Origin: Cellulomonas humilata
GTDB taxonomy: Bacteria; Actinomycetota; Actinomycetes; Actinomycetales; Cellulomonadaceae
Assembly (NCBI RefSeq): GCF_013359775.1
Contig: NZ_JABMCI010000055.1
Span: 1 to 64,000 of the forward strand
Direction of reading: 5' to 3'
Length of the DNA: 64,000 bases
Shown: one piece after another, positions 3,480 through 30,346 of the stretch
Layout of the letters: every line of letters starts with the position of its first letter
Numbering within the stretch: position 1 is the first letter of the stretch
Notes under the pieces: model-generated
What the model was told of the DNA's origin: nothing
Databases searched by the model: none
Seen by the model: the letters and a program-made list of their open reading frames with translations, nothing else
Program-made: the position numbers and the translations under genes

Positions 3480-3566
3480 CCCGCTCGACGGGAGGGTTGC
3501 CGCGCGTGGTGCCCACGCTGGTCGCACAGCATAGGCGACGTCAGTCGACCGGCGACGACGCGACAG

Positions 3567-6779: not shown

Positions 6780-7559
6780 ATGAAGGCCGTTCTGCTGGCG
6801 GGTGGTCTCGGTACCCGCATGCGCGAGGAGACCGAGTTCCGTCCCAAGCCCATGGTGGAGATCGGCGGCAAGCCGGTCCTGTGGCACCTGATGAAGACGT
6901 TCGCGGCGCACGACGTCACGGACTTCGTGATCTGCGCCGGGTACAAGGGCGAGCAGATCAAGGAGTACTTCCTGAACTACGCCGCCCACAACACCGACTT
7001 CACGATCACCCTGGGGCGGTCGGGCAGCGTGGAGTTCCACGACGACCACCTCGAGCGTGACTGGACCGTGACGGTCGCCGACACCGGGCAGTCGACGCTG
7101 ACCGCCGGGCGGGTCGAGCGCATCGAGCCCTACGTCAAGGGCGAGCGGTTCATCGTGACCTACGGCGACGGCCTGGCGGACATCGACATCAGCGCGCTGC
7201 TGTCGTTCCACGAGGCCCACGAGCTCAAGGCGACCATCACCACGGTGCAGCCGCTCTCGCGTTTCGGGCTCGTCGAGCTGGACGACCAGAGCCGCGTCAC
7301 GCGCTTCCGCGAGAAGCCGCAGATGGAGGACTGGGTGAGCGCCGGGTTCTTCGTCTTCGAGCCCGAGGTGTTCGACTACGTCCGCGACAGCGACGAGGTG
7401 ATGCTCGAGCACGAGCCGCTGGACCGCCTCGCGGACGAGCGTCAGCTCGCCGCCTACCGGCACGAGGGCTTCTGGCAGCCGATGGACACCTACCGCGAGT
7501 CGCAGATGCTCAACGAGATGTGGGACACCGGCAAGGCGCCGTGGAAGGTCTGGCAGTGA
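6780..7559 (+). CDS. rfbF: Glucose-1-phosphate cytidylyltransferase
   Basis: The 259-residue enzyme makes CDP-glucose from CTP and glucose-1-phosphate, the entry step to CDP-dideoxysugars. Seen are the nucleotidyltransferase signature LLAGGLGTRMREET with RPKPM (about residues 5-25), the YGDGLADID metal-binding Asp segment, and EKPQMEDWVSAGFFVFE, all typical of RfbF/AscA. Length matches the family. It heads a run of genes that overlap by four bases each (GTGA, GTGA, ATGA, ATGA), so transcription and translation are coupled. The next enzymes of the same pathway, rfbG and rfbH, lie on the opposite strand in the operon that converges on this one. Confidence 0.94.
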   Translation: MKAVLLAGGLGTRMREETEFRPKPMVEIGGKPVLWHLMKTFAAHDVTDFVICAGYKGEQIKEYFLNYAAHNTDFTITLGRSGSVEFHDDHLERDWTVTVADTGQSTLTAGRVERIEPYVKGERFIVTYGDGLADIDISALLSFHEAHELKATITTVQPLSRFGLVELDDQSRVTRFREKPQMEDWVSAGFFVFEPEVFDYVRDSDEVMLEHEPLDRLADERQLAAYRHEGFWQPMDTYRESQMLNEMWDTGKAPWKVWQ

Positions 7560-8539
7560 CCGCGGACATCGAGGTGTCGACCACCTCCACCGATGCGGTG
7601 GTCGGTCGCAAGCTGATCTCCGTCGTGATCCCGGCGTACAACGAGTCCGACTGCGTCGACGAGCTCGCGCGTCGTCTCGCGGACGTGGCGGACGGCGAGA
7701 AGGACCAGTACGACTTCGAGGTCATCATCGTCGAGAACGGCTCGCAGGACGACACCTGGGAGAAGCTGCAGAAGATCCACGCCGACGACGGGCGTTTCAA
7801 GATCCTGCAGCTCGCGCGGAACTTCAAGATGGACGGCGGGCTCACCGCAGGCCTCGCCTTCGCCACGGGCGACGCCTGCGTGGTGATGACGGCCGACCTC
7901 CAGGACCCGCCCGAGCTGATCCCCGAGTTCCTCCGCAAGTGGGAGGAGGGCTACGAGAACATCTACATGGTCGTGAGCGAGCGCCAGGGCACAGGGCCGC
8001 TGCGCACGTTCAACTCGAAGGCCTTCTATTGGCTGGCGGGAAAGCTCACCGACGGAGCGATCCCTCGCAACGCGAGCGACTTCCGGCTCGTCGACCGGGG
8101 CGTCTACGAGACGATCAACCAGATGCAGGAGCGCAACCGGTTCATCCGGGGGCTCTTCGCGTGGGCCGGCTACAAGTCGATCGGCATCCCGCACCGGCGG
8201 CCGCCGCGCTTCGGTGGAGAGTCGAAAGCGCACTCCCTCAAGGTTCTGGACCTCGCGTTCAAGGGAATCTTCGCGCATTCCTATGTCCCGCTCCGGCTCA
8301 TTACCGTCACCGGGCTCGGCGTTTCCGCGATCTCCGCGATCGTGCTCGTCGCTTTCACGCTGCAATTCCTCTTCTCAGGCGTTCCCTTCGCGGGGTTCGG
8401 CACCTTGATCGGCTTCATCCTGCTGCTGTTCGGAATTCTCTTCTCGATGATCGGCATCGTCAGCGAGTACGTCGGCCTGATCTACGAAGAGGTCAAGCAG
8501 CGCCCCAACTTCGTCGTGCGACGTCGGCTCGGTCTGTGA
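7556..8539 (+). CDS. GtrB/DPM1-like polyprenyl-phosphate glycosyltransferase
   Basis: A 327-residue GT2 enzyme. The N-terminal domain shows SVVIPAYNESDCVDE, VENGSQDDT, the ADLQDP metal/nucleotide motif and NASDFRLVDR, all typical of bactoprenol glucosyltransferases (GtrB). The C-terminus has two membrane spans (about residues 230-305) and ends in a cytoplasmic tail. Such enzymes load a sugar from a nucleotide onto undecaprenyl phosphate on the inner face. The GTG start overlaps the rfbF stop (GTGA), and its own stop overlaps the GtrA start in the same way. With GtrA next door, it probably builds the lipid-linked donor of the sugar made in this operon; which sugar it takes is inference. Confidence 0.88.
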   Translation: MTADIEVSTTSTDAVVGRKLISVVIPAYNESDCVDELARRLADVADGEKDQYDFEVIIVENGSQDDTWEKLQKIHADDGRFKILQLARNFKMDGGLTAGLAFATGDACVVMTADLQDPPELIPEFLRKWEEGYENIYMVVSERQGTGPLRTFNSKAFYWLAGKLTDGAIPRNASDFRLVDRGVYETINQMQERNRFIRGLFAWAGYKSIGIPHRRPPRFGGESKAHSLKVLDLAFKGIFAHSYVPLRLITVTGLGVSAISAIVLVAFTLQFLFSGVPFAGFGTLIGFILLLFGILFSMIGIVSEYVGLIYEEVKQRPNFVVRRRLGL

Positions 8540-9126
8540 CGGTCGCACCGGTGGACGGATCGTCGGCGCCGACCCGGCTGCGTGCGCTGCTCGACTCCGA
8601 GGGGTTGCGCTTCGTCCTCGTCGGCGGTGTCAACACCGTGTTCGGGTTCGGGATCTTCGCCCTTCTCCAGTCCACGCTCGGCACGGTCGTGCACTACCTC
8701 GTCGTGCTGGTCGTGGCGCAGGTGATCGCGGTGCTCGAGGCGTACGTCCTGCAGCGTTACGTCGTGTTCCGGGCGCGCGGGCGCTGGTGGCGTGACCTTG
8801 TCAGGTTCAGCTCCGTCTACGCGGTGGCGTTCGCCGTCAACGCGGCCGCGCTGCCGCTCCTGGTCGAGGTCCTGCACATGGCCGTGATTCCGGCTCAGGC
8901 CGTGGTCACCGCGGCCGTCGCGCTCGGGACGTTCCTGGTGCACCGCAACTTCACCTTCCGACACTCCCGGAGGTCGGCCCGCGAGGCCGTGCCGACCGCC
9001 ACGACCCGAGGGGCAACGCCTCAGGTCACCGCCCTTCCCACTGCCGGCGCCCCTGCCGACGACACCACGTCCCCCCGCGTCGCGCAGACTGACGACGCCG
9101 CACCCAGGAGTACGATCCGACCATGA
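8536..9126 (+). CDS. gtrA: GtrA family membrane protein (probable lipid-linked sugar flippase)
   Basis: 196 residues. After a short N-terminus come four membrane segments with the GtrA signature: FVLVGGVNTVFGFGIF near the start of the first span, ALEAYVLQRYVVF-like middle and HRNFTF at the end of the fourth span. A 45-residue polar Ala/Thr/Pro tail follows and is longer than usual. GtrA proteins are thought to flip undecaprenyl-phosphate-linked sugars. The gene overlaps both neighbours by four bases, downstream of the GtrB-like transferase, which matches the gtrAB arrangement of O-antigen modification systems in reversed order. Confidence 0.88.
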   Translation: MTVAPVDGSSAPTRLRALLDSEGLRFVLVGGVNTVFGFGIFALLQSTLGTVVHYLVVLVVAQVIAVLEAYVLQRYVVFRARGRWWRDLVRFSSVYAVAFAVNAAALPLLVEVLHMAVIPAQAVVTAAVALGTFLVHRNFTFRHSRRSAREAVPTATTRGATPQVTALPTAGAPADDTTSPRVAQTDDAAPRSTIRP

Positions 9127-11009
9127 GCGAATCCGTCGTGACCGGCGCCGATGCCGTCGCCGCAGCCCTCGAAGAACTCGGTGTCGACATTGTTTTCGGT
9201 ATCACCGGAGCAGGGAATCTCGCGATCTGTGACGCGATTTATCGGCGCGGAGCGACCCGGCTGATCTTCGTGCACCACGAGCAGGCGGCGCTCATGGCGG
9301 CCCAGGGCCTGGCGCGCACGACCGGTCGGCTCGGTGTCGCCCTCGTGACGACGGGCGGCGGCTCGACGAACGCGCTGACCGGGATCGTCGGAGCGCAGAT
9401 GGACTCGGTGCCGCTGCTCGTCCTCTCCGGCAACGAGAGCTCGATCCACACGAGCACGGACAACGAGCTGCGGATCTGGGGTGTGCAGGGCTTCGACTCG
9501 CGCCAGGTCTTCGCGCCGGTGACCAAGGCGGCGCACCGTGCGCGCAACGCGGACCAGATCCGCGACCTCGTGGTGAACTCGGCGCGCACGGCGCTCGAGG
9601 CCCGAGCCGGCGCCGTGACGATCGACATCCCGATGGACCTCCAGCGCAAGCCGCTCAGCACCACGCTCGCCGGGTCCCCGGCCGTCCCGGTCCTCGACCT
9701 CGGGAGCAGCGTGGACTACGGCGACGTCCTCGACTCGTCGCTGGACCGCCTGACGGCGGCGCTGCGGCGCAGCATGCGCCCGGTCCTGCTGCTGGGGAAC
9801 GGCCTGCGCAACGGCATGGACCGGCCCGAGATCCGCTCGCTCGTCGCGGACATCGGCATCCCCACGCTGCTGTCCTGGTCGGCGATCGACCTGCTCGACT
9901 CGTCGCACGCCATGAACTTCGGTCGCTCGGGCATCTACGGCGACCGGTACTCGAACATGATCGTGCAGAACGCCGATCTCGTCATCGCCATCGGCTCGCG
10001 TCTGGCCATCCCGCAGCTCAGCTACGACCCGGCGGACTTCGCTCGCGACGCGCAGGTGTTCGTGGTCGACGTGGACGGCAAGGAGCTGGAGAAGTTCGTC
10101 GGGGACCGGTGGGTCCGGGTGCAGGCCGACGCGGCGCAGTTCCTGGAGCAGTTCGCCAAGCTCGGGCCCGTCGCTGCGGACATCGACACATGGGTGCGCA
10201 AGTGCGAGCAGCTGCGCACCGACTTCCCGCGTCGTGCGCAGACCACCGAGGCGATCCCCGCCGCACAGCGCGACCAGTTCGTGAACTCCTACGACGTCGT
10301 CTACGAGATCAGCGACCAGGCGGGCTCCGACGACATCTTCGTCACCGACATGGGCACCGGGCTGTTGTCCGGGTTCTACGGTCTGGACGTCAACGAGGAC
10401 CAGCGCCTGGTGACGTCGCTGGGGCTCGGGGAGATGGGCTACGGCCTGCCCGCAGCGGTCGGTGCGCAGTTCGCGCACCCGGAGGCCCGGGTGGTCTGCC
10501 TGAACGCCGACGGCGGCATGATGCTCAACCTCCAGGAGCTCCAGACCGTCGCTCACCACAAGCTGCCCATCAAGCTCGTCGTGTTCAGCAACGACGGGTA
10601 CCTGATGATCAAGCACTCTCAGCGCAACCTCTTCGACGGCCGGTACGTCGGGTCGGACCTCGACTCCGGGGTGTCGTGCCCGGACTTCTCGAAGCTGGCG
10701 GACACCTTCGGGTTCTCGTACGTAGGGCTGTCGGAGCAGGGCGACATCAGCGCGAAGGTCGCCGAGTTCCTCGCGACGGACGGCCCCGTGCTCCTCGAGG
10801 TGTTCATGCACCCCGAGCAGCTGTTCATCCCCCGCGTCGGCACGCTCAAGGGCGAGAACGGCACGCTCATCTCGCCGCCGCTCGAGGACATGATCCCGCT
10901 GGTGAGCGAGGCGGAGCTGAGTGCTGCGATGAGCGGGGCGCTGCACCCGGAGTCGACCAGGATCCGCAGCGTGCCGGGCGTGCTCCCGGTACAGGGAGGC
11001 AAGTCATGA
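9123..11009 (+). CDS. ThDP-dependent acetolactate-synthase-like enzyme, candidate YerE-type C-branching transferase
   Basis: 628 residues with the acetolactate synthase fold: N-terminal pyrimidine-binding domain with the activating Glu53 in HHEQAAL, a middle domain (about 195-345), and a C-terminal cofactor domain with NADGGMMLN (461-469) and a distal Asn490 in VFSNDGY. The usual GDG reads ADG. It lies between a Gtr pair and aldolase genes in a CDP-dideoxysugar operon, not beside ilvN or ilvC. In Yersinia, YerE, a ThDP flavoenzyme of this family, decarboxylates pyruvate and adds the two-carbon unit to C4 of CDP-4-keto-3,6-dideoxyglucose. The same chemistry is proposed here. The acyl donor may be longer, because an aldolase follows. 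An ordinary catabolic decarboxylase role is less likely. Confidence 0.75.
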   Translation: MSESVVTGADAVAAALEELGVDIVFGITGAGNLAICDAIYRRGATRLIFVHHEQAALMAAQGLARTTGRLGVALVTTGGGSTNALTGIVGAQMDSVPLLVLSGNESSIHTSTDNELRIWGVQGFDSRQVFAPVTKAAHRARNADQIRDLVVNSARTALEARAGAVTIDIPMDLQRKPLSTTLAGSPAVPVLDLGSSVDYGDVLDSSLDRLTAALRRSMRPVLLLGNGLRNGMDRPEIRSLVADIGIPTLLSWSAIDLLDSSHAMNFGRSGIYGDRYSNMIVQNADLVIAIGSRLAIPQLSYDPADFARDAQVFVVDVDGKELEKFVGDRWVRVQADAAQFLEQFAKLGPVAADIDTWVRKCEQLRTDFPRRAQTTEAIPAAQRDQFVNSYDVVYEISDQAGSDDIFVTDMGTGLLSGFYGLDVNEDQRLVTSLGLGEMGYGLPAAVGAQFAHPEARVVCLNADGGMMLNLQELQTVAHHKLPIKLVVFSNDGYLMIKHSQRNLFDGRYVGSDLDSGVSCPDFSKLADTFGFSYVGLSEQGDISAKVAEFLATDGPVLLEVFMHPEQLFIPRVGTLKGENGTLISPPLEDMIPLVSEAELSAAMSGALHPESTRIRSVPGVLPVQGGKS

Positions 11010-11875
11010 GAGCCGCGATCATCGGGACGGGCAACATCGGCATCGACCTGGCCGAGAAGCTTCTGCGGGAACACTCGCTGGAGCTGATCGCCATGGCAGG
11101 TCGGCGAGCGAGCTCTCCCGGCCTGGCGCGCTTCGAAGGCCGGGTCAAGTACCTGACGGCCGACGGCGTCGACGGGCTCGAGGAGCACTTCGACGAGATC
11201 GACGTGTTCTTCGACGCGACCTCGGCGGACTCGCACCGTGAGCACTGGAAGCGGCTCGAGGGGCTCGGCAAGGCTGTCGTCGACCTGACCCCGTCGCGGG
11301 TCGGTGCGGCGTTCGTGCCCGGGGTGCTCGACCACGAGAACCAGCCCGGCAAGCCGATCCACAACATGTCGATGGTGACCTGCGGCGGCCAGGCCTCAGT
11401 GCCGATGGTCAGCGCCCTCGCGCGCCATGTCGAGCGCGTCGACTACGTCGAGGTGTCGTCGAGCATCGCGTCGCTCTCCGCCGGACCGGCCACGCGCGCG
11501 AACATCGACGACTACATCCGTGCGACGGAGAACGCCGCGCGGCTGGCGTCCGGCGCCGACGTCGCCAAGTCGATCCTCGTGCTCAACCCGGTCGAGCCGC
11601 CGACGATCATGCGGACGACCGTGCACATGAAGGGCCTCCTGGGTGACCTGGCGACTCTCGACCGCACCGTCCGCGACGCGGTCGACCTCGTGCGGGAGTA
11701 CGTCCCGGGCTACCGGCTGCTGGTGCCGCCCGTGCAGCATGCCGCCGACGTTCTCACCGTCTCCATCGGCGTCGAGGGGGCCGGCGACTACCTGCCGCCC
11801 TACGCCGGCAACCTGGACATCATCACCGCGGCCGCGGTGAAGACCGCGCTCGACATGGTCGCAGTCGCGAGTTAG
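11006..11875 (+). CDS. mhpF: Acetaldehyde dehydrogenase (acylating), MhpF/DmpF-like
   Basis: 289 residues. The family interconverts acetaldehyde, CoA and NAD+ with acetyl-CoA and NADH and forms a channelling complex with the aldolase encoded next. Seen are an N-terminal Rossmann motif IIGTGNIG, the catalytic Cys126 in MVTCGGQASVPM, and GNLDIITAAA near the end. Length is slightly under the usual 300-315. A GGGAGG lies six bases before ATG 11006, which overlaps the ThDP gene stop by four bases. No catabolic hydratase or ring-cleavage gene is nearby, so a role in sugar biosynthesis, possibly producing acetaldehyde from acetyl-CoA, is more likely than aromatic degradation. That direction is inference. 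Confidence 0.9.
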   Translation: MRAAIIGTGNIGIDLAEKLLREHSLELIAMAGRRASSPGLARFEGRVKYLTADGVDGLEEHFDEIDVFFDATSADSHREHWKRLEGLGKAVVDLTPSRVGAAFVPGVLDHENQPGKPIHNMSMVTCGGQASVPMVSALARHVERVDYVEVSSSIASLSAGPATRANIDDYIRATENAARLASGADVAKSILVLNPVEPPTIMRTTVHMKGLLGDLATLDRTVRDAVDLVREYVPGYRLLVPPVQHAADVLTVSIGVEGAGDYLPPYAGNLDIITAAAVKTALDMVAVAS

Positions 11876-11882
11876 GCATCCC

Positions 11883-12908
11883 ATGACCACCACCACCACG
11901 CCCACCGCGCAGATCACCGTCTACGACGTCACGCTGCGCGACGGCAACCACGCCCTCCGGCACCAGGCCTCGCGCGAGCTCGTGCGTGACTACTGCCAGC
12001 TCGCCGACGTGTCGGGTGTCGACTACGTCGAGGTCGGCCACGGCAACGGCATCGGCGCATCGTCGGCCCTGGTCGGCTTCTCGCTCGAGACCGACGAGGT
12101 CCTGCTCACCACCGCGCGTGAGGCGCTCACCCGCAAGAAGCTCGCCGTGCACTGCATCCCGGGTTTCGCGACCGTCGAACGCGACGTGCTCCCGGCGCTG
12201 GCGAACGGCGTGGACCTCGTGCGGATCGGGACGCACGTCACGGAGGCGGACACCGGCGCCAAGCACCTCACCGCGGTGCGCGAGGCGGGCCGCGAGGCCG
12301 TCTCGGTGCTGATGATGAGCCACATGGCCACCGTCGAGCGTCTGGTCGAGGAGTGCGTGAAGGTCGAGGGCTTCGGCGCGCAGGCCGTTGTGCTCATGGA
12401 CTCGGCGGGCCACTTCTCGCCGGCGGACGTCACGGCACGGATCTCCGCGATCGTCGACGCCGTTGGTATCGACGTGGGTTTCCACGCACACAACAACCTC
12501 GGTGTCGGCATCGCAAACGCGCTCGCCGCCCTGGACGCGGGTGCGACCATCGTCGACGGGTCCTCCGCAGCGCTCGGTGCCGGTGCAGGCAACGCACAGC
12601 TGGAGTGCCTCGCGGCGGTGCTCGTCCAGGAGTACGGGGTGGATCTGGGCGAGCTCACGCCGTTCTTCCGGATGGGCAGCCTGATCGCCGAGCGAGCTGC
12701 CGGCCACCTGCCGAAGACCACCAGCTCGAGCGTGATCAGCGCGCTGGCCGGTGTGTTCAGCGGCTATGCGCCGCACGTCCAGGCGATCGCCGAGGAGCTC
12801 AACCTCGAGCCTGCGCTCCTGTGGCGTGAGCTCGGGGCGCGCAAGGTCGTCGCCGGCCAGGAGTCGATCATCCGTGAGATCGCCCGCGATCTCATGGACC
12901 TGTCCTAG
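11883..12908 (+). CDS. mhpE: 4-hydroxy-2-oxovalerate aldolase, MhpE/DmpG-like
   Basis: 341 residues of the HMGL-like TIM-barrel family plus the C-terminal communication domain found in DmpG. Seen are TLRDGNHA with Arg19 and Asp20, a nearby catalytic His23, MDSAGHFSP, and the metal pair FHAHNN (His201, His203). The reaction is reversible: 4-hydroxy-2-oxopentanoate to or from pyruvate and acetaldehyde. It starts seven bases after the dehydrogenase stop. Pairing with MhpF is universal in catabolic clusters, but here the surroundings are nucleotide-sugar genes. If run in the synthetic direction it would supply a five-carbon 2-keto acid to the ThDP enzyme upstream; this is my proposal. Confidence 0.9.
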   Translation: MTTTTTPTAQITVYDVTLRDGNHALRHQASRELVRDYCQLADVSGVDYVEVGHGNGIGASSALVGFSLETDEVLLTTAREALTRKKLAVHCIPGFATVERDVLPALANGVDLVRIGTHVTEADTGAKHLTAVREAGREAVSVLMMSHMATVERLVEECVKVEGFGAQAVVLMDSAGHFSPADVTARISAIVDAVGIDVGFHAHNNLGVGIANALAALDAGATIVDGSSAALGAGAGNAQLECLAAVLVQEYGVDLGELTPFFRMGSLIAERAAGHLPKTTSSSVISALAGVFSGYAPHVQAIAEELNLEPALLWRELGARKVVAGQESIIREIARDLMDLS

Positions 12909-12910
12909 GC

Positions 12911-13882
12911 GTGGTCGCAGGGCCGATGCCGCCGTCCCGAACGACGGCTCCCGTCAGCGCGCGCGCCGCCGACCAGGTGGCCTCCGTCGTCCGACCTGAC
13001 GACCGGGTCCTGCTCACCGGCGCCGGAGGCTGGTTCGGCTCCACCGTCGCGGCGCTGCTGCACGGGCACGACGCACAGGTCATGCACGTGACCCAGCGTC
13101 CCCGCACGGTCCAGCACGGGAACGGCTCCGTCGAGGCCGTGGCGTGGGACTGGGCGACCGTGCGCGACTTCGCACCCACCGTCGTCGTGGACTGCGCCTT
13201 CGTCCTGCGCGACTACATCGACCAGACGTCGATCGAGCAGTACGTCCACGTCAACACCGTGCTCACCCAGCGCCTGCTCCAGGTCTCCCAGCTGCCGGGG
13301 GTCCGCACGGTGCTCTCGGTGTCGAGCGGCGCGGCGGCCCACCCCGTCGACGCCTCGCGGCACGAGGTGGACGTCGACCCGTACGGCTACCTGAAGCGGC
13401 AGGCCGAGCTCGCGTTGTCCGGGCTGGATGCGGCGGTCGACGCGAACCTGGTCGTCGCGCGCCCCTACAGCCTCTCGGGGACGCTGGTGAGCCGCCCTCG
13501 ACGGTACGCGTTCTCGGACCTCGTGCTCCAGGCCCGCGAGGGTGCCGTCCACGTCAAGGCGGGGCACGACGTGTGGCGTCGGTACGTCGGTGTCGACGAC
13601 TTCTTCGCGGTCTGCCTCGGCGTGGGTGCGCAACGGTCGGGGACCGTGAGCTCAGCCGGCGAGCTGGTCGAGTTCGGAGCACTGGCTGAGCGCGTGAACC
13701 ACGTCCTGGACGCACGCGCGACGGTGACTCGTGCCGACCGGACCGGCGCGCCGGCGGACGACTACTACTCACGGGACACCACGTGGGACGAGGCGTGCAG
13801 ATCTCTCTCGTACCGGCCGGCGGACCTCGACGAGCAGATCCGCACGGTCGACGCCTACCTGGCCGCGGCCGGCCGCTCGTGA
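12911..13882 (+). CDS. NAD(P)-dependent SDR, candidate reductase of the branched sugar
   Basis: 323 residues of the extended SDR (epimerase/dehydratase) family. The cofactor loop is LLTGAGGWFGS (Gly37, Gly40, Gly43), Ser residues lie in SVSSGAA (about 136-140), and the catalytic pair is Tyr158-Lys162 in PYGYLK. The first 30 residues are an extra extension, so a later start is possible; GTG 12911 is two bases after the aldolase stop. In the yersiniose pathway a reductase (YerF) reduces the keto group left after carbon transfer. This is the only SDR in the operon not assigned to another step, so it is the natural candidate. An epimerase role cannot be excluded. Confidence 0.75.
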   Translation: MVAGPMPPSRTTAPVSARAADQVASVVRPDDRVLLTGAGGWFGSTVAALLHGHDAQVMHVTQRPRTVQHGNGSVEAVAWDWATVRDFAPTVVVDCAFVLRDYIDQTSIEQYVHVNTVLTQRLLQVSQLPGVRTVLSVSSGAAAHPVDASRHEVDVDPYGYLKRQAELALSGLDAAVDANLVVARPYSLSGTLVSRPRRYAFSDLVLQAREGAVHVKAGHDVWRRYVGVDDFFAVCLGVGAQRSGTVSSAGELVEFGALAERVNHVLDARATVTRADRTGAPADDYYSRDTTWDEACRSLSYRPADLDEQIRTVDAYLAAAGRS

Positions 13883-14517
13883 CGGAGGAGCACGCCTACG
13901 ACGTCCTCGCGTCCCGCAGGGTGTTCGACGGGCGTGTGCTCTCGGTGCGCTCCGACCGGGTGCTCATGCCGGGCGGCACGGACGCGCAGCGCGACGTGGT
14001 GGAGCTGCCCGGCGCGGTCGGGATCGTGGCGCTGCGCGACGACGGCCGCGTGCTGCTGGTGCGGCAGTACCGCCACCCCGTCCGCCGTCGACTGTGGGAG
14101 ATCCCGGCGGGGCTGCTCGACTCCACGTCCGAGACCCCGCAGGACGCGGGGGAGCGCGAGCTGTTCGAGGAGGGCGGACTGCGCGCGAGCGGGTGGCACA
14201 CGCTCGTCGACACCTTGACGTCGCCGGGCATGTCCGACGAGACCATCCGGATCCTGCTCGCCCGAGGCCTGACGTCGATCGACGCCGACGAGGAGTACTC
14301 GCGGTTCGACGAGGAGGCCGAGATGGAGCGCTCGTGGGGCGACCTCGACGAGGCCGTCCGATGGTGCCTGGACGGCACGCTGGAGAACGGGCTCACGATC
14401 GCGGGCCTGCTCGCGGCGCGAGTCGCACGGGAGACACGGTTCGCCGACCTGCGGCCGAGCTCGACGCCGTGGCGGGCGCGGCGCGCCGGGTCGACCACGG
14501 ACGACGGGCAGCGGTGA
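13879..14517 (+). CDS. Nudix hydrolase, ADP-ribose pyrophosphatase-like
   Basis: 212 residues. A Nudix box is clear around residues 80-105, with Gly in PAGLLD and the REL-EEGG core, and the preceding VRQYRHPVRRRLWEIPAG is typical of NudF-type ADP-sugar pyrophosphatases. The C-terminal extension is polar. The GTG start at 13879 overlaps the SDR stop (GTGA). Actinobacterial nudF usually sits near pyrG and xerD; its coupling to a CDP-sugar operon is unusual and might mean it acts on a nucleotide sugar or clears a by-product. That is speculation; the family call is firm. Confidence 0.85.
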   Translation: MTEEHAYDVLASRRVFDGRVLSVRSDRVLMPGGTDAQRDVVELPGAVGIVALRDDGRVLLVRQYRHPVRRRLWEIPAGLLDSTSETPQDAGERELFEEGGLRASGWHTLVDTLTSPGMSDETIRILLARGLTSIDADEEYSRFDEEAEMERSWGDLDEAVRWCLDGTLENGLTIAGLLAARVARETRFADLRPSSTPWRARRAGSTTDDGQR

Positions 14518-14633
14518 TGGGGGAGGGTGCCGCAGCGGCCCTGGACGAACCCGCCGCCCCGTGACGGGACCGCAGCATCCCGTCTCCGGCCGATCAGGTC
14601 CGGCTGGACCTGAGGCTCCTGAGGCGCCCGTCC

Positions 14634-15824
14634 GTGCTCGCCCCAGCCCTGTCTGCGTGGCTCGCCGGTTGCTGGCTGGCGATCATCACGGCGACGACGT
14701 ACATCGGTGACGACCTGATCAACAAGGACATCCGAGCCGCCGCCGCCGAGCGGGGTACCGATCTGGGTGGCCTCATCGGGCACTACACGTCGCAGTGGAT
14801 GACGGAGCAGGGACGGTTCTTCCCCGGATCCCTGGGCTGGTCGTACACGGTCTTCTGGGTGACCGAGGTGCGCGTGCCCTACAAGTTCGTCCTGGGCGCG
14901 GTGCTGGTGGCGTGCGTCGCGGCGTGCGCTCTGCTCAGCGTCACGCTGACCGGTCGGTGGCGCGTCGCCCCCGCTCTGGTCGCGTCGGCGGTCTGCTTCG
15001 TGCAGGTCCGGGTCGGCTTCGATGCCATCATCGGGTTCGCTGGACTCGTCCCCCTCACCCTCGGGCTGTGCGCAGCCGCGATCGTCCTCCTCGTGCGAGG
15101 CCGCGGCTGGGTGTCCGCACTCGTCGCCGCGGCGCTCTACTCGATGGCGCTCGTGACCTACGAGACCGTGATCCTGTTCGTCCCCGCCATGGCCGCGCTC
15201 GTCGTGTACTGGCGTCGGCGCTGGCTCCCCGCCCTGGCGCTGGTGGTCCCAGCGGCGTTGGCCGCCGGGGCGGCGGTCGTCCTACGAGGCGCGGTGCGCA
15301 CGCCCACCCTCGCCGCCTACACCGTGGACCTCGACCCGCACGTCGTCGTCCCGACGTTCGCGAAGCAGGCCCTCGCTGCCCTGCCGATGTCGCAGTGGAT
15401 CCTCGGCGCTCCAGGCGTGCCGTCGGTGCCGACCGGCGCAGTCGTGGTGGCTGCGCTGGTGTGCGGACTGCCTGTCGCCGCGCTGATGCTCTCCGCGTCG
15501 GGCGGCCCTCTGCGTGCGTCGTGGGCGGCGATCGTCAGCCTGGGGGGATTTGGGCTGTGGATCTGGCTGACCTCAGCACTGCTCACCGGGATCACCGTGC
15601 GCTGGCAGGAGGAGGTGCACCGGGGACAGGGCTACCTGTCGGTCGTCTACGGCTATCTCGGGTGCGCCCTGCTCGCCTGTGCGATCTGGCTCGTCGGCGA
15701 GAGACTGGTGGCGGATCGGTCGCGGACGGCGCGGGCGGCGTGGAGGATCACGAGCGCGCTCGTGATCGCGGCTGTCGCGACCGCGACGATGGCGGGCAAC
15801 CTCGCGATCACGTCCTTGGTCTGA
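14634..15824 (+). CDS. Polytopic membrane protein, GtrII/GT-C-like
   Basis: 396 residues with about nine to ten hydrophobic segments. After the first span comes a short extracytoplasmic loop starting TTYIGDDLINKD, a DDD/N-type acidic stretch as seen after the first span of GT-C enzymes and of the GtrII family, followed by a re-entrant-looking QGRFFPGSLGW. Nothing stronger identifies it. The gene follows the Nudix gene by 116 bases on the same strand, with a weak AGG before GTG 14634. With the GtrB-like and GtrA proteins upstream, it could be the third, outer-face transferase of a Gtr system. That role is inference. Confidence 0.65.
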   Translation: MLAPALSAWLAGCWLAIITATTYIGDDLINKDIRAAAAERGTDLGGLIGHYTSQWMTEQGRFFPGSLGWSYTVFWVTEVRVPYKFVLGAVLVACVAACALLSVTLTGRWRVAPALVASAVCFVQVRVGFDAIIGFAGLVPLTLGLCAAAIVLLVRGRGWVSALVAAALYSMALVTYETVILFVPAMAALVVYWRRRWLPALALVVPAALAAGAAVVLRGAVRTPTLAAYTVDLDPHVVVPTFAKQALAALPMSQWILGAPGVPSVPTGAVVVAALVCGLPVAALMLSASGGPLRASWAAIVSLGGFGLWIWLTSALLTGITVRWQEEVHRGQGYLSVVYGYLGCALLACAIWLVGERLVADRSRTARAAWRITSALVIAAVATATMAGNLAITSLV

Positions 15825-15854
15825 CGATCCCGCGGACGGGACCCCGGCAACGGG

Positions 15855-16193
15855 CTACTGCCAGCCGTTGACCAGGGGCGTGTCGACGCCGATCGGTCCG
15901 AGCGCCTCGGCGCCGCCAGGGTTTCCGAGCGGCTCGGGACGACCCGGCAGCGGCAGCTCGAAGAACGCCAGGTTGTCCGCGGTGAACGCCTCGCGCTCGT
16001 CGTCGCCCTTGGCGCGCCGGGCGGGGAAGATGGCGACCTCGGGGCAGGCGAGCTCGCACGCGCCGCAGTCGATGCACTCGCTGGCGTTGATGTAGTTCTT
16101 CCGCTCGCCCTCGTAGATGCAGTCCACGGGGCAGACGTCGACGCACGAGCGGTCCAGCGCGTCGATGCATTCCTTGCCGATGACGTAGACCAT
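15855..16193 (-). CDS. fdxA: Seven-iron ferredoxin ([3Fe-4S][4Fe-4S])
   Basis: 112 residues. Cysteines at 9, 17, 21, 25, 40, 43, 46 and 50 match the 7Fe ferredoxin pattern: C9, C17 and C50 would hold the 3Fe cluster, C21, C40, C43 and C46 the 4Fe cluster, with C25 free. The acidic C-terminal extension is normal for actinobacterial FdxA. The gene begins three bases after the reductase stop, last in an operon with rfbH and rfbG. FdxA commonly serves monooxygenases; here the obvious electron acceptor is the [2Fe-2S] dehydrase RfbH. Confidence 0.93.
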   Translation of the reverse strand: MVYVIGKECIDALDRSCVDVCPVDCIYEGERKNYINASECIDCGACELACPEVAIFPARRAKGDDEREAFTADNLAFFELPLPGRPEPLGNPGGAEALGPIGVDTPLVNGWQ

Positions 16194-16196
16194 GGC

Positions 16197-17234
16197 TCAG
16201 CCTTCCGATCCGGCAGCGACGAACTCTGGCTGGAGCTCCTCGTCGGTGGAGTGCCCCGGGAACAAGGACAGGTCGGGGTCGATGAGGACGGCGGCGTTGT
16301 TCACCGCGGTCGCGGCCTCGCCGAACCCGGTGGCCATCAGTGCGACCTTGCCGGGGTACGTCGAGCAGTCTCCCGCGGCGAAGACGCCGGTGACGTTCGA
16401 CTGCATCGCGGAGTCCACGACGATCTTGCGGTCCTGCATGGCCAGGCCCCAGGCGGCGAACGGCGAGGGTGCGGTGACCAGGCCCAGCGCACCGATCACG
16501 GTGTCGGCGGGCATCTCGTGCTCGGCGCCCGACGAGTCCCGCACGACGACCGCACGGACCGCGTCGTCGCCGTGGATCGCCTGGATCTCGCTCTCCGTGA
16601 GCAGCGTGACGCCGAGCGACTCCGCGCGGCTCATCTGCGACGCGTGCGCCCGGAACTGGCGTCGGCGGTGGACCACGGTCACGGAGCGCGCGATGGGGGA
16701 CAGCTGGATCGCCCAGTCCAGCGCGGTGTCCCCGCCGCCCACCACGACGATGTCCTCGTCCTCGTGCGACGACGGGTCGTGCACGACGTACGTGACGCCC
16801 CGGCCGTGCCAGCCGTGCCCTAGGGGGAGCACCCGTGGTCGGATGCCCCCGACGCCCGTGGCCAGGACGACCGCGCGGGAGTCGATGGCGGAGCCGTCCT
16901 CGAGCGAGACGGACAAGCCGGCCTCGCGCTCCTCGCGCACGATGTCGACCACGTTCTGGCCGAAGATCGTGCGGGGCTCGTAGATCTCGGCCTGCGCGCG
17001 CAGCCCGGCGATGAGCTCGGCCCCCGTGATGCCGACGAACCCGGCGACGTCGTGGATCGTCTTGGCGGGGTAGAGGGCGGCAACCTGGCCACCGGGGTCC
17101 GGCTGGGCGTCGACCAGGGTCACGCTCAGGCCCCGGAAACCCGCGTAGTAGGCAGCGAACAGTCCTGCGGGTCCGGCACCGACGATGGTCAGGTCACACG
17201 CCGTGCGGTGCGCGAACACGTCCTGGTCCTTCAT
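16197..17234 (-). CDS. Thioredoxin-reductase-like ferredoxin-NADP+ reductase
   Basis: 345 residues. The FAD motif is IVGAGPAG (Gly19, Gly21, Gly24), the NAD(P) motif is VVVGGGDTALDWA (about 163-175), and HRRRQFRA (189-196) supplies the Arg residues that favour NADPH. The CxxC of true thioredoxin reductases is absent, as in YumC-type reductases. A final FAD motif reads FAAGDCSTYPGKV. ATG 17234 overlaps the rfbG stop by four bases; the longer open frame upstream is antisense-type read-through of rfbG in another frame. It would pass electrons from NADPH to the ferredoxin encoded next and thence to RfbH, replacing the AscD/DdhD reductase of the classical pathway. Confidence 0.88.
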   Translation of the reverse strand: MKDQDVFAHRTACDLTIVGAGPAGLFAAYYAGFRGLSVTLVDAQPDPGGQVAALYPAKTIHDVAGFVGITGAELIAGLRAQAEIYEPRTIFGQNVVDIVREEREAGLSVSLEDGSAIDSRAVVLATGVGGIRPRVLPLGHGWHGRGVTYVVHDPSSHEDEDIVVVGGGDTALDWAIQLSPIARSVTVVHRRRQFRAHASQMSRAESLGVTLLTESEIQAIHGDDAVRAVVVRDSSGAEHEMPADTVIGALGLVTAPSPFAAWGLAMQDRKIVVDSAMQSNVTGVFAAGDCSTYPGKVALMATGFGEAATAVNNAAVLIDPDLSLFPGHSTDEELQPEFVAAGSEG

Positions 17235-18265
17235 GCGGGCCGCCCCGCGAGCTCGAGGTACTCGCGCACCTGCGCGACGGTCTGGGTGCGCGGATCGGTG
17301 CCCGCGCCGACCTTCTGGGCCCACTCGACGGTCCAGGCGAGCGCGTCCGGCAGCCGCAGCGCGTCGTGCCAGCCCAGCGCCAGCGCGGCCTTGCGGGAGT
17401 CCAGGGCGAGCAGGCCAGCCTCGTGCACCTTCGGACCCTCGTCGAGCTCGACGGTCGCGTCGCGGCCCCACAGGGCAGCCACCGACGTCGCGATGTCGCC
17501 GACGCGGACGAACGACTCCGTGCCCGGGCCGAAGTTGAACGCCTCGCCCGCGAGCCGGCCGTCGAGCAGCGCGTCCGCGAGCAGCAGGTAGCCGTGCAGG
17601 CAGTCGAGCACGTGCTGCCACGGACGGACCGCGTCGGGGTAGCGCAGCCGCACGGGCTCGCCGGCGGAGAAGGCGGCCACCAGGTCGACCATGAGCCGCT
17701 CGGGGCAGACATCGCCGCCGCCGATCACGTTGCCCGCACGCGCGATCCCGGTGGGCACCGCCGAGCCGGAGCTCTGGATCCAGCTCTGCGTGAGCAGGTC
17801 CGCCGCTGCCTTCGAGGCCGAGTACGGGTCCACGCCGCCCAGCGGCTCGCCCTCGCGGTAGCCCCAGATCTGGTCGACGTTCTTGTAGACCTTGTCGGTC
17901 GTCACGATCACCTGGGCCTGCACGCTCGGCGTCGACTGCACCGCCTGGAGCACGTGCAGCGTGCCCATCACGTTCGTCTCCCACGTCGTGCGGGGGTCGC
18001 GGTACGACTCCCGCACGAGCGGCTGAGCGGCGAGGTGCAGGACGACGTCGGGCGCGATGGCCCGGATGGCGTCCGCCGTCGCCGCAGCGTCCCGGATGTC
18101 GACCCGCAGGTCGTCGCGCAGGGCCTCGCCCAGACGCGCCCGCTCGTACACCGCACCGGGCGCCGGGTCGAGCGACAGCCCGGAGACCGTGTGCCCTTGC
18201 TCCGTCAGCATCAGGGTCAGCCACGCGCCCTTGAAGCCCGTGTGACCGGTGACGAGGTAGTGCAT
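17231..18265 (-). CDS. rfbG: CDP-glucose 4,6-dehydratase
   Basis: 344 residues of the extended SDR family. The cofactor loop VTGHTGFKGAWL (residues 5-16) is diagnostic for CDP-glucose 4,6-dehydratases, as are TTDKVYKN (122-129) and RPWQHVLD. The catalytic YSASK spans 148-152. The product is CDP-4-keto-6-deoxyglucose, the substrate of RfbH. ATG 18265 shares one base with the rfbH stop. The gene order rfbH, rfbG, reductase, ferredoxin gives the enzymes and the electron supply for 3-deoxygenation in one unit. Confidence 0.95.
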   Translation of the reverse strand: MHYLVTGHTGFKGAWLTLMLTEQGHTVSGLSLDPAPGAVYERARLGEALRDDLRVDIRDAAATADAIRAIAPDVVLHLAAQPLVRESYRDPRTTWETNVMGTLHVLQAVQSTPSVQAQVIVTTDKVYKNVDQIWGYREGEPLGGVDPYSASKAAADLLTQSWIQSSGSAVPTGIARAGNVIGGGDVCPERLMVDLVAAFSAGEPVRLRYPDAVRPWQHVLDCLHGYLLLADALLDGRLAGEAFNFGPGTESFVRVGDIATSVAALWGRDATVELDEGPKVHEAGLLALDSRKAALALGWHDALRLPDALAWTVEWAQKVGAGTDPRTQTVAQVREYLELAGRPA

Positions 18266-19590
18266 CAGCGAGCGCCGTCCTTGCCCGTGACGTAGTTGAT
18301 GAGCGTGTCCGCCATGTAGTCGATCATGCTCTCGGTGAGGCCCGGGTAGACGCCGAGCCAGAACGAGCGGTTCATCACGGTGTCGGAGTTGCGCAGGTCG
18401 CCGACGACGCGCCGCTCGATGTTGCGGTAGGCCGGCTGGCGCAGCAGGTTGCCCGCGAAGATCAGGCGCGTGCCGATCTTCTTGGTCTCCATGTGCCGCA
18501 TCAGCTCCTCGCGGTCGACCGCGAGGTCGTCCGCGAGCGTGATCGGGAAGCCGAACCAGGCCGGGTCCGAGTTCGGGGTGGCCACCGGGAGGATGAGCCC
18601 CTCGACGCCCTGGAGGCGCTCGTACAGGTAGGCGAAGTTCTCCTTGCGGCGCTTCACGAAGAAGTCGAGCTTGCGCAGCTGGCTCAGGCCGAGCGCGGCC
18701 TGCATGTCCGTGCCCTTGAGGTTGTAGCCGATGTGGCTGTACGTGTACTTGTGGTCGTAGCCGAGGGGCAGGTCGCCCAGCTGCCACTGGAACCGCTTGC
18801 CGCACGTGTCGTCCTGGCCGGTCTCGCAGTAGCAGTCACGGCCCCAGTCGCGGAACGACTCCACCTGACGCGTGACCAGCGGGTGCTTAGAGAAGACCAC
18901 GCCGCCCTCACCGGTGGTGATGTGGTGGGCCGGGTAGAACGAGACGGTCGCGGTGTCGCCGAAGCTCCCGGTGCGCTGACCGCGGTACGTCGAACCGAGC
19001 GCGTCGCACGAGTCCTCCACCAGCCAGAGCTTGTGCTCCTTGCACAGCTCCTGGACCAGGTCGAGGTCGAACGGGTTGCCGAGCGTGTGGGCCATCATGA
19101 TGGCCTTCGTCTTCGGGCCGACAGCCTCGCGCAGCTGGTCGCCGATCGCGTCGTACGTGCCGAGCTCGACGTCCACGAAGACGGGCATCAGCCCGTTCTG
19201 GATGATCGGGTTGAGCGTCGTCGGGAACCCCGCGGCCACCGTGATGACCTCGTCGCCGGGCTTGAGCTGACGCTTGCCCAGCTTCGGGCTCGTGAGCGCG
19301 GACAGTGCGACGAGGTTCGCCGACGAGCCGCTGTTGACGAACGACGCGGCGCGCGTGCCGACGTAGTCGGCGAGCGTGTCCTGGAACTCGGTGGTCCAAC
19401 GACCGGCGGTGAGCCAGCCATCGAGGGACGAGTCGACCAGGGCGACCATGTCGTCCGCGTCGAGGACCTTTCCGGACACGGGAACGGTGGACTCCCCGGG
19501 GACGAACTCTCGTGCGGCGAGAGAGACGTCGGCGAACTGACGCACACTCTCCAGGATCGACTCTCGGCGAGCGGTCAGGTCGTCGTTCAC
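18265..19590 (-). CDS. rfbH: CDP-4-keto-6-deoxyglucose-3-dehydrase (E1), PMP and [2Fe-2S] dependent
   Basis: 441 residues of the aminotransferase fold, converted to a dehydrase that removes the C3 hydroxyl. Two diagnostic features are present. The PLP lysine is replaced: YPAHHITTGEGG has His222-His223 where aminotransferases have Lys. The iron-sulfur cysteines are C195, C253, C255 and C263, which is exactly the C-X57-C-X-C-X7-C spacing of Yersinia E1 (AscC/DdhC). The GTG start at 19590 follows GAGGAG closely. Electrons must come from outside; the usual CDP-sugar reductase is missing, but a ferredoxin and a ferredoxin reductase lie downstream in the operon. Confidence 0.96.
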   Translation of the reverse strand: MNDDLTARRESILESVRQFADVSLAAREFVPGESTVPVSGKVLDADDMVALVDSSLDGWLTAGRWTTEFQDTLADYVGTRAASFVNSGSSANLVALSALTSPKLGKRQLKPGDEVITVAAGFPTTLNPIIQNGLMPVFVDVELGTYDAIGDQLREAVGPKTKAIMMAHTLGNPFDLDLVQELCKEHKLWLVEDSCDALGSTYRGQRTGSFGDTATVSFYPAHHITTGEGGVVFSKHPLVTRQVESFRDWGRDCYCETGQDDTCGKRFQWQLGDLPLGYDHKYTYSHIGYNLKGTDMQAALGLSQLRKLDFFVKRRKENFAYLYERLQGVEGLILPVATPNSDPAWFGFPITLADDLAVDREELMRHMETKKIGTRLIFAGNLLRQPAYRNIERRVVGDLRNSDTVMNRSFWLGVYPGLTESMIDYMADTLINYVTGKDGAR

Positions 19591-21942: not shown

Positions 21943-22170
21943 CCTTCTCCATACGTGCGAATCGTCTCGGTCGGCGGTCCGCCGACAGAGAACGATACTC
22001 GACGGCTCCGGTCGGCCGAACACCACCAAACCGCCCGACCCGGGCACCAGCTCCGCGGTCCGGTCAGCGACATGCCGTCACCGTCGTTGACGTGCGGGAT
22101 CCTGCGTCCAAAGATGAGCAACCCGTGCGGCCCATGGCCCCGCGAAGGACATCGTGAGGAGTCAGACACC

Positions 22171-27272: not shown

Positions 27273-27964
27273 TTGCGGCCCGCCCGCAGCCGGACGGACT
27301 GGACGGCGCGCAGCGGTGCGGTGAGCCGCCACGAGACCGTGCTGTACGTGGCGTTGAGCAGGTGGTGCAGGTGCGCCACCTCGTCCTTCAGCTCCTTGTT
27401 CGTCCGGCCGCTCTCGACAGCGGCGCGCTTCGCCCATCGCGTGAGCGCTGCCGTGCGCCAGTACACGATCTCGTCGACGAGCTCTGAGCGAGAGCGCGAG
27501 GACACGCCGTCCGGCCACCGCTCACGGTCGGACGGTGCGAACGAGAGAACCGGTCCGAGCTCGTCGACCCTGCTCTCGTGGGCGTACAGGCACCAGTCGA
27601 CCGTGCGGAGGCAGCCGACGTAGCCTGCCGCCTGCGCAGGCTCGTCCCAGCCCGGCCATGGCCGCTCGTCGGGGGCGTCCGAGCGCCGCACCGCCAGGAC
27701 GGCGGGCGACGTTGGCCCCGCTGTCGAGAGCGCGTCGGTCACGGAGTCCTCGAGCGTCAGCAGAACGGACGGCGCGGCGTCCGACGCCCACCCGCGGACG
27801 TCGAGCGCGGCGACCACGGAGCGGACAGTGTCGTCAGACGTCCCGACGACGGCGTACGTGCTGGGCTCCTCCGTACGCAGGGCGCGCACCAGGACGAGCA
27901 CCTCGATCGGCACGTCGGCCGCAGCAGCAGCGTGGGTGAGGGGAGTGGGCGAAGCGTTGGTCAT
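27269..27964 (-). CDS. Unknown protein with C-terminal helical SWRLTAPLR motif
   Basis: 231 residues, not recognised as a family. The N-terminal 150 residues have a mixed alpha/beta character with VLVLVRALR and VLAVRRSDA strands, somewhat like a degraded nucleotide-diphospho-sugar fold, but no DXD motif is clear. The C-terminus has a predicted amphipathic helix followed by STVSWRLTAPLRAVQ. That short motif recurs at the ends of glycosyltransferases and methyltransferases in polysaccharide loci. ATG 27964 follows GAGGA by seven bases. It lies between wzt and two GT4 genes and overlaps the next by four bases, so it probably belongs to the same assembly machinery. Confidence 0.7.
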   Translation of the reverse strand: MTNASPTPLTHAAAAADVPIEVLVLVRALRTEEPSTYAVVGTSDDTVRSVVAALDVRGWASDAAPSVLLTLEDSVTDALSTAGPTSPAVLAVRRSDAPDERPWPGWDEPAQAAGYVGCLRTVDWCLYAHESRVDELGPVLSFAPSDRERWPDGVSSRSRSELVDEIVYWRTAALTRWAKRAAVESGRTNKELKDEVAHLHHLLNATYSTVSWRLTAPLRAVQSVRLRAGRK

Positions 27965-28013
27965 CGGAGTTCCTCGTCCGGTACTAGCGATCTTCATGGC
28001 GGTGCTCGGGGCG

Positions 28014-30136: not shown

Positions 30137-30298
30137 GCGGCTCCGATCGTCGGGGAATCGCTCGCTCGCGCCGGGCGCCGTGGCACACGCAGCGCGCGCA
30201 AAGGCGCGAGCGGAACGTCACTCTACCCTTGCGGGTGGTTCTCCCCGGCGTCACCCGCACGCGAACCGCTCCGCGACGGTGGGCGCTTCGTCCCCACC

Positions 30299-30304: not shown

Positions 30305-30346
30305 GTACCAGTGCGCGGGGGCGTCGACGAGGTGAGGAGCTCAGTG

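Follow-up and report, generated by a model that had tools for sequence, protein, structure and literature searches.

Which branched sugar do the two converging operons at positions 6780–19590 of the window (the whole 64,000-nucleotide stretch of Cellulomonas humilata DNA that was analysed) serve to make? The initial annotation compared them with the route to yersiniose, whose two-carbon branch derives from pyruvate. Such a product is not supported, as genes for the synthesis of 4-hydroxy-2-oxovalerate (HOV) lie in the same operon, and ErwE, whose donors are 4-hydroxy-2-oxo acids of this kind, is reported not to use pyruvate (PMC12247030). The product is probably not yersiniose but a CDP-linked decose of the erwiniose type, CDP-3,6-dideoxy-4-C-(1,3-dihydroxybutyl)hexose. 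The identities of the genes rest on profile matches, from which we infer the reactions, their stereochemistry and the route of delivery.

Locus architecture and sugar precursor

As initially described, rfbF, rfbG and rfbH are split between two converging operons, whose ends at 15824 and 15855 are 30 nt apart. Each exceeds a curated equivalog cut-off: rfbF (6780–7559, forward strand), encoding glucose-1-phosphate cytidylyltransferase, with 344 bits against 300 for TIGR02623; rfbG (17231–18265, reverse strand), encoding CDP-glucose 4,6-dehydratase, with 375 against 278 for TIGR02622; and rfbH (18265–19590, reverse strand), encoding the E1 enzyme CDP-4-keto-6-deoxyglucose 3-dehydrase, with 700 against 423 for NF011936. 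The annotated pathway to CDP-4-keto-3,6-dideoxyglucose is thereby borne out, and no abequose, paratose or ascarylose enzyme was named when the genes nearby were scanned with Pfam and NCBIfam. An RfbI-type reductase with an FAD_binding_6 domain was not found at the locus, and the genome's single FAD_binding_6 match lies on another contig. Two reverse-strand genes are proposed to fill this role: an FdxA-type ferredoxin (15855–16193; NF045480, 121 bits, just under the cut-off of 125) as the electron donor to RfbH, and a thioredoxin-reductase-like flavoprotein (16197–17234; PF07992; start at 17219 GTG or 17234 ATG) as the ferredoxin reductase standing in for rfbI.

Eight genes were added to those initially recognized, encoding this ferredoxin and flavin reductase, a GT2 glycosyltransferase, a GtrA-like protein, an acetaldehyde dehydrogenase, an HOV aldolase, a NUDIX hydrolase and a membrane protein. 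With start codons as assigned, genes overlap the preceding one by 4 nt at 7556, 8536, 9123, 11006 and 13879, an arrangement like that of a single transcription unit. The locus is more than a chance assembly, since five proteins (RfbF, RfbG, RfbH, the dehydrogenase and, by 0.5 bit, the aldolase) exceed equivalog cut-offs and comparable gene sets are co-located in many named loci. A foreign base composition of the donor module was ruled out; GC, GC3 and codon use match those of the neighbours.

The expected surface polysaccharide setting is backed by the flanking genes, which encode an LCP protein, a Wzt/Wzm-like ABC exporter and several glycosyltransferases. Within the forward operon, the PgfS/ArnC-like GT2 enzyme (7556–8539; PF00535; NF047588 PgfS 228 bits, below the cut-off of 500) has two C-terminal transmembrane stretches by hydropathy and is taken, from its sequence, to be of the polyprenyl-phosphate sugar synthase type. 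It is followed by a GtrA-like membrane protein (8536–9126, forward strand; PF04138, 73 bits), a putative flippase for lipid-linked sugar. The NUDIX hydrolase (13879–14517, forward strand; PF00293) is kept at 70% in the congener L037, which has another ThDP module. The last gene of the operon (14634–15824, forward strand) encodes a protein that is polytopic by hydropathy, a putative GT-C transferase without a match in the Pfam and NCBIfam scans; among 57 relatives it has a copy in G014 only (42%; E up to 1e-8), and its structure prediction (pLDDT 42) was discarded.

The ThDP enzyme and the SDR

The ThDP enzyme (9123–11009, forward strand) and the SDR (12911–13882, forward strand) were correctly placed from the outset. 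The best PDB chain for the former is 8rph, which we take to be JanthE of Janthinobacterium sp. HH01 (562 bits, 47% identity); the next chain, an acetolactate synthase, reaches 246 bits. Both enzymes fall within one 69-row clade (SH-aLRT 99, tree without rows L105 and L112), and an AU test on 42 rows rejected a grouping with the congeneric ThDP enzymes (p-AU 0.003) or with IlvB (p-AU 0.014); the trees were quick ones built without bootstrap, and those of the ThDP enzymes carry long-branch warnings, the branch of the window enzyme measuring 1.6–1.9 in both. An acetolactate synthase identity is ruled out by the IlvB test, by the gap between the two PDB scores and by the NCBIfam scores, which among the matches listed lie under the cut-off of each of 25 families. 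The firm IlvB grouping that would have spoken against the initial annotation did not occur; the enzyme groups with the YerE-like 8rph, the sole reference member.

The window enzyme has HHEQA with Glu53, presumably the catalytic glutamate. At the ThDP-binding motif it carries ADG (residues 462–464) in place of the CDG of 8rph, and ADG was found in no other row of the motif comparison, whose loci are the best 80 of at least 542. The CDG that replaces GDG in the JanthE/CDG subgroup is lacking, yet the tree places the enzyme in the clade, so it is described as a divergent relative; given this motif and the long branch, its donor may have drifted. The row nearest to 8rph, L051 from Rugamonas rivuli (98.7%), belongs to a locus with rfbF, rfbG, rfbH, the dehydrogenase and the aldolase (again among the best 80 of at least 542). 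A near relative on a plasmid was ruled out among the matches listed: of 45 matching records, the 30 listed have 28–32% identity, and the annotated ones among them are ilvB, ilvG, ilvI or acetolactate synthase.

Three characterized enzymes frame the choice of donor. YerE, from the yersiniose A pathway of Yersinia pseudotuberculosis, shares the acceptor sugar and the kind of ThDP chemistry but is reported to be limited to pyruvate and 2-oxobutyrate as donors, for which an aldolase pair is not needed (PMC12247030). ErwE, also YerE-like, puts a 4-hydroxy-2-oxo acid onto CDP-4-keto-3,6-dideoxyglucose in making the erwiniose of the Pectobacterium atrosepticum O-antigen (PMC12247030), a sugar also reported from the O-antigen of Erwinia carotovora (PMC9912281). 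The window is likened to it by predicted chemistry and differs in its actinobacterial host and in the ferredoxin pair replacing RfbI. JanthE, the closest solved relative, accepts HOV together with benzaldehyde, and an article of 2025 (PMC12188165) counts its physiological substrates as unidentified; as it also takes pyruvate, acceptance of HOV is no proof of its native donor. The loci of the clade that it shares with the window enzyme mostly carry the HOV module.

The extended SDR (PF01370) is proposed to be the side-chain ketoreductase, a step described as uncharacterized in yersiniose biosynthesis as of 2016 (PMC4753412). It keeps YxxxK in an alignment with actinobacterial counterparts, its predicted fold (pLDDT 84) is closest to solved folds that are mostly NDP-sugar epimerases and dehydratases, and its one match among PDB sequences, MoeE5, is weak. 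It differs in type from the SDR next to the cassette in 59 of 80 loci (the best 80 of at least 542).

The aldolase-dehydrogenase pair and the branch donor

The pair lies inside the operon, the DmpF-like acylating acetaldehyde dehydrogenase (11006–11875, forward strand; TIGR03215, 309 bits, cut-off 282) overlapping the ThDP gene by 4 nt and being followed after a 7-nt gap by the DmpG-like HOV aldolase (11883–12908, forward strand). The dehydrogenase carries the motif TCGGQA common to its solved relatives. The aldolase, the only one in the genome above the TIGR03217 cut-off, exceeds it by a very thin margin (286.5 versus 286 bits); it contains the DmpG communication domain (PF07836) and keeps R17, D18, H21, H200 and H202, which we take to be the catalytic residues of DmpG-type aldolases. 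The two enzymes make up the same unit as DmpFG and BphIJ, albeit in a sugar operon, and together should make HOV.

Unlike those systems, the window aldolase has His and Phe in place of Leu and Tyr at the two stereocontrol positions, with His/Phe/Gly at DmpG positions 88/291/293. His and Phe are shared by 62 of 63 cassette aldolases, among which the window enzyme branches (tree with 12 of the 30 ordinary rows), whereas Leu and Tyr occur in 30 of 30 ordinary aldolases, the highest scoring of their search. A comparable change in BphI is reported to reverse the enantiomer used (PMC4012138), so by analogy the window aldolase is predicted to make HOV probably in its (4R) form. A His/Phe aldolase pair also occurs in a second actinobacterium (G679), with no comparable ThDP gene in the stretches around the pair and around rfbH. 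No paper linking an aldolase to CDP-glucose was found in the open literature searched.

The association of the pair with the ThDP enzyme was followed through 80 named loci, many from metagenome-assembled genomes; as two peptide patterns, drawn from the window, 8rph and L032, yielded at least 542 confirmed stretches and these loci are the best 80, the sample is not a random one. A gene was counted as present when mechanically derived ORFs gave a blastp match with E up to 1e-20. Among these best 80, both genes occur in 61 of the 67 CDG loci, one in two (dehydrogenase in L076, aldolase in L093, both near a contig end) and neither in four; the 13 non-CDG loci comprise one with both (L119) and 12 with neither. 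The CDG loci L092 and L094 are without the aldolase even though their sequence reaches about 9 kb or further in either direction. Where both genes are present (62 loci), they share a strand, which is that of the ThDP gene in 59, and the nearer lies at most 3 kb from it. A second sample, an even draw of genomes, had both genes in three of three CDG loci and either gene in none of 14 non-CDG loci, three of the latter being on contigs under 8 kb; its L191 and L192 are probably the same records as L108 and L115. Three congeneric species have a similar scaffold with other ThDP modules.

A yersiniose-type product would require the ThDP enzyme to transfer acetaldehyde from pyruvate and the SDR to reduce the acetyl branch, leaving the pair to some other role. 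The acceptance of pyruvate by JanthE, the nearest characterized relative (PMC12247030), speaks for it, as does the resemblance of the window SDR to those accompanying GDG-type ThDP enzymes in actinobacteria. This reading is nevertheless unlikely, given the close packing of the pair within the operon, its concentration near the ThDP gene in CDG loci of the best 80 of at least 542, and congeneric loci that combine a ThDP enzyme and an SDR without the pair; the indirect evidence points to HOV over pyruvate as the donor.

The pair could hardly be a remnant of the end of an aromatic meta-cleavage pathway, brought into a sugar operon by chance. Such an origin would suit protein families that are the same as those of DmpG and DmpF, but the 30 ordinary actinobacterial aldolases score 548–561 bits with TIGR03217 against 286 for the window enzyme, the His/Phe/Gly signature occurs in 0 of these 30 and in 62 of 63 cassette aldolases, and no ring-cleavage gene was named among 20 neighbouring proteins scanned, so that a catabolic remnant is very hard to credit. 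Rather improbable, too, is a longer-branched sugar of other constitution, formed if the aldolase used an aldehyde other than acetaldehyde. ErwE is reported to accept several 4-hydroxy-2-oxo acids (PMC12247030), and the position of BphI Leu89, which governs aldehyde length, is occupied by Ile in the window (DmpG position 90 in our own mapping). Against this, the acylating acetaldehyde dehydrogenase encoded beside the aldolase indicates acetaldehyde as the aldehyde, and in the actinobacterial locus L040, which has a different donor module, the place of the pair is taken by a HAD phosphatase and a protein of the NeuB family.

A probable erwiniose-type pathway and its significance

The locus combines what an erwiniose-type pathway calls for: the genes for CDP-4-keto-3,6-dideoxyglucose and, beside the ThDP gene, a source of a 4-hydroxy-2-oxo acid (TIGR03215, TIGR03217). 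In the proposed route, RfbF, RfbG and RfbH would convert glucose-1-phosphate to CDP-4-keto-3,6-dideoxyglucose, RfbH being reduced by the ferredoxin and ferredoxin reductase that replace RfbI. The dehydrogenase would form acetaldehyde from acetyl-CoA and pass it to the aldolase for condensation with pyruvate to HOV, probably (4R). The ThDP enzyme would then decarboxylate HOV and join the resulting 3-hydroxybutanoyl unit to the CDP-sugar at its C4 ketone, and the SDR would reduce the new ketone, giving CDP-3,6-dideoxy-4-C-(1,3-dihydroxybutyl)-hexose. The GT2 enzyme may load this sugar onto a lipid carrier, GtrA may flip the lipid-linked sugar to the other side of the membrane, and attachment to a surface glycan may fall to a membrane transferase (14634–15824 or a flanking one).

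The suggestion that a Gram-positive wall version of such a sugar would be new was too strong, since caryophyllose of Mycobacterium marinum and gastriose of M. gastri, both C4-branched and tied to YerE-like enzymes, are already known in actinobacteria (PMC12247030 for gastriose). Caryophyllose (MMAR_2332) is likewise a C4-branched 3,6-dideoxyhexose of an actinobacterial envelope, made with a ThDP enzyme of reportedly ErwE-like donor preference (PMC12247030), but its branch is longer (tetrahydroxyhexyl) and it is carried on a glycolipid, the lipooligosaccharide.

On balance, the cassette of CDG/ADG ThDP enzyme, dehydrogenase, stereo-inverted aldolase and SDR, with loci in ten phyla, may be a dedicated maker of C10 sugars derived from (4R)-HOV and the source of JanthE's native donor, for which HOV is proposed; within the genus it would be one exchangeable module among several built onto a common scaffold, so that each species has surface sugars of its own. 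Its aldolases would be natural enzymes with a stereochemistry that in BphI needed engineering. The genes adjacent to the ThDP gene may tell the branch, with none indicating C2, an HOV aldolase pair C4 and a NeuB-type synthase perhaps a longer one; if this is true, branched surface sugars would become predictable from genomes.

Gene content and placement of the ThDP enzyme

The genes named in the initial annotation are all present where it placed them. rfbF (6780-7559), rfbG (17231-18265) and rfbH (18265-19590) each exceed their NCBIfam equivalog cut-offs, the ThDP enzyme (9123-11009, 628 aa) and the SDR (12911-13882, 323 aa) are encoded between them, and the two converging operons are separated by 30 nt. 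Eight additional genes had been overlooked, two of which, encoded directly behind the ThDP gene, alter the interpretation: an acylating acetaldehyde dehydrogenase (11006-11875; TIGR03215, 309 bits, cut-off 282) and a 4-hydroxy-2-oxovalerate (HOV) aldolase (11883-12908; TIGR03217, 286.5 bits, cut-off 286; PRK08195 subfamily, 341 bits, cut-off 229). With this pair, a branched-sugar pathway is still supported but a yersiniose-type one is not, and the locus is best read as an actinobacterial erwiniose-type branched-sugar pathway.

The closest PDB match of the ThDP enzyme is 8rph (562 bits, 47% identity), which we take to be JanthE, followed by an acetolactate synthase (246 bits). Among the 89 rows of a quick tree, the window enzyme falls within a 69-row clade that includes 8rph (SH-aLRT 99), with IlvB and the congeners' ThDP enzymes outside it, though the long branch of the window enzyme and a program warning make its exact position inside the clade unsure. 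A grouping with IlvB was rejected on 42 rows (p-AU 0.014), as was a grouping with the congeners' enzymes (p-AU 0.003, the same number of rows). Matches of this strength are uncommon across the phylum; at E <=1e-95, the host's own genome aside, only 3 of 395 genomes yield one, with 34-37% identity. Their three-residue variant in the ThDP-binding motif is GDG in two (L039 and L040) and masked in the third (L038).

The aldolase/dehydrogenase pair and donor choice

Donor use distinguishes the characterized branching enzymes. According to a 2025 review (PMC12247030), YerE accepts only pyruvate and 2-oxobutyrate, ErwE, the erwiniose-forming enzyme of Pectobacterium atrosepticum, does not take pyruvate and favours 4-hydroxy-2-oxo acids, MMAR_2332 is similar to ErwE in its donor, and more than 200 YerE-like enzymes have been listed in silico. 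The same review describes for JanthE the CDG motif that appears in the 8rph alignment. JanthE accepts HOV together with benzaldehyde, its physiological substrates being not identified according to PMC12188165. The Rugamonas rivuli locus L051, whose ThDP enzyme is 98.7% identical to 8rph, contains rfbF, rfbG, rfbH, the dehydrogenase and the aldolase. Since JanthE accepts HOV and the locus of this near-twin carries both genes, HOV is a good candidate for the native donor of JanthE, a point that may already be stated in the JanthE discovery paper or in the in-silico survey.

An alignment combining 8rph, the window enzyme and a single distant relative served to scan named genomes, and the best 80 of at least 542 stretches were compared. 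Within these 80, CDG is found at 67 loci, the remainder having GDG or another variant, and both aldolase and dehydrogenase lie in the fetched stretch of 61 of the 67, against only one (L119) of the 13 others. Two more CDG loci, each close to a contig end, have only the dehydrogenase (L076) or only the aldolase (L093), and neither gene was found in the fetched stretches of L068, L092, L094 and L098, with about 9 kb or more present on either side in L092 and L094. Wherever both genes occur (62/62 loci of the best 80), they share one strand, and no more than 3 kb separates the nearer one from the ThDP gene. Tree rows with this cassette span ten phyla, as named in their records: Pseudomonadota, Bacteroidota, Verrucomicrobiota, Omnitrophota, Bdellovibrionota, Gemmatimonadota, Actinomycetota (one Thermoleophilaceae MAG, L100), Wallbacteria, Hydrogenedentota and Spirochaetota. 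A second sample, an even draw of 369 genomes of one class and 345 of one phylum, centres included, gave 17 more loci, with both genes in all three CDG rows and either gene in none of the 14 others, two of which (L191, L192) are probably the same records as L108 and L115 and three of which sit on contigs shorter than 8 kb. Telling for the association is L082, a GDG enzyme nested in the CDG clade and lacking the pair, with only about 5 kb present on one side.

Predicted aldolase stereochemistry and predicted sugar

Numbered by alignment to DmpG (1nvm), the window aldolase conserves R17, D18, H21, H200 and H202, which we take to be the catalytic and metal residues. His88, Phe291 and Gly293 are present in cassette aldolases at 62 of 63 loci and likewise in the window, the exception being L119 (Phe, Phe, Gly), while the 30 highest-scoring ordinary actinobacterial aldolases all have Leu88, Tyr291 and Ser293. 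According to PMC3962088, the stereocontrol residues of BphI are Leu87 and Tyr290, the wild type takes only (4S)-HOV, Y290F takes either enantiomer, and L87N/Y290F cleaves (4R) but not (4S), data that cover Leu and Asn at the residue equivalent to His88. By our own mapping, BphI 87 and 290 would correspond to DmpG 88 and 291; at the offset used, Leu87, Leu89 and Tyr290 of BphI all agree with DmpG. From the BphI variants at these equivalent positions, we infer that the cassette aldolases would provide (4R)-HOV.

Caryophyllose is a 3,6-dideoxy-4-C-(tetrahydroxyhexyl)-D-xylo-hexopyranose (PMC5706390). This structure is consistent with a 3,6-dideoxyhexose ring whose C4 carries an acyl chain derived from a 2-oxo acid. 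Applied to HOV and followed by ketone reduction, the same logic would give a 3,6-dideoxy-4-C-(1,3-dihydroxybutyl)-hexose, presumably the constitution of erwiniose. A D configuration at erwiniose C7, as we derive it from the name of the sugar, would match (4R)-HOV. The window SDR, which retains YxxxK, is a candidate for reducing the side-chain ketone. Its predicted fold (pLDDT 84) most resembles extended SDRs (TM ~0.6-0.7), the majority of them epimerases and dehydratases of NDP-sugars, and would fit a nucleotide-sugar substrate.

Several observations count against the erwiniose-type reading. The window aldolase barely exceeds the TIGR03217 cut-off, and among the motif rows compared, ADG occurs only in the window. 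Its SDR differs from the type adjoining the ThDP or aldolase gene in 59 of the best 80 of at least 542 loci, and resembles those accompanying GDG enzymes. Both cassette genes also occur at one of the 13 loci without CDG in that set (L119). A second actinobacterium (G679; L158, 8273-10170) encodes a His/Phe HOV aldolase with the dehydrogenase on a contig other than that of its rfbH, and no ThDP gene of the window type was found in the stretches around either.

Proposed electron supply, surroundings and module exchange

Scans around the locus revealed nothing resembling rfbI, and the single FAD_binding_6 match genome-wide lies on a different contig. An FdxA-type ferredoxin and a thioredoxin-reductase-like flavoprotein (15855-17234) are proposed to replace RfbI. 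Both adjoin rfbG in congeners L035, L036 and L159, L037 shows the ferredoxin and part of the reductase, and the pair was not found next to any of 25 further rfbH loci in the class (stretches of at most ~1.5 kb per side); among the loci examined, this replacement was seen only in this genus. Lipid-linked delivery could proceed via the GT2, GtrA and polytopic (14634-15824) proteins. The surroundings form a surface polysaccharide island, including an LCP protein and rmlB and, at 24250-43096, GT4 genes, a Wzt-like ATPase with Wzt_C, a Wzm-like ABC-2 permease, a Gmd-like protein, a GT2/GT4 fusion and an RmlA-like protein. Two related large membrane proteins (1665-3527 and 19672-22047), each with ~9-10 TM stretches by hydropathy and neither with a Pfam or NCBIfam match, flank the locus; genome G012 has two copies of such a protein, one adjoining rfbH.

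rfbH (E <=1e-100) is present in 4 of 35 congeners, and a ThDP enzyme more than 34% identical to the window's in none of the 35. Three congeners (G005, G014 and G027) retain rfbF (79-85%), GtrA (54-65%), GT2 in two of three (80-82%) and, within the fetched stretch, rfbG, rfbH, ferredoxin and reductase (64-89%, the G014 rfbH coming from the search of the 35 congeners), with ThDP enzymes only 31-32% and SDRs 28-34% identical to the window's. G014 alone of the three can be assigned to the same genomic site, since the amidase, rmlB and LCP genes that flank the window locus are found there too. Its ThDP gene, with VHEVAA at the catalytic Glu, lies near a DHQ-synthase-like protein, an HpcH/HpaI-type aldolase and SDRs, a putative branch-making module (L037, 6689-11966); G005 and G027 have ThDP and SDR genes. 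In a more distant actinobacterium (G414; L040, 7465-11697), the ThDP gene of an rfbF/G/H locus adjoins a NeuB-family/cupin protein and a HAD phosphatase, a set that could supply a hydroxylated donor of greater length, like that for caryophyllose. The locus is of interest for its donor module, for the stereochemical signature of that module and for its exchange among related species, rather than as the first yersiniose of a Gram-positive.
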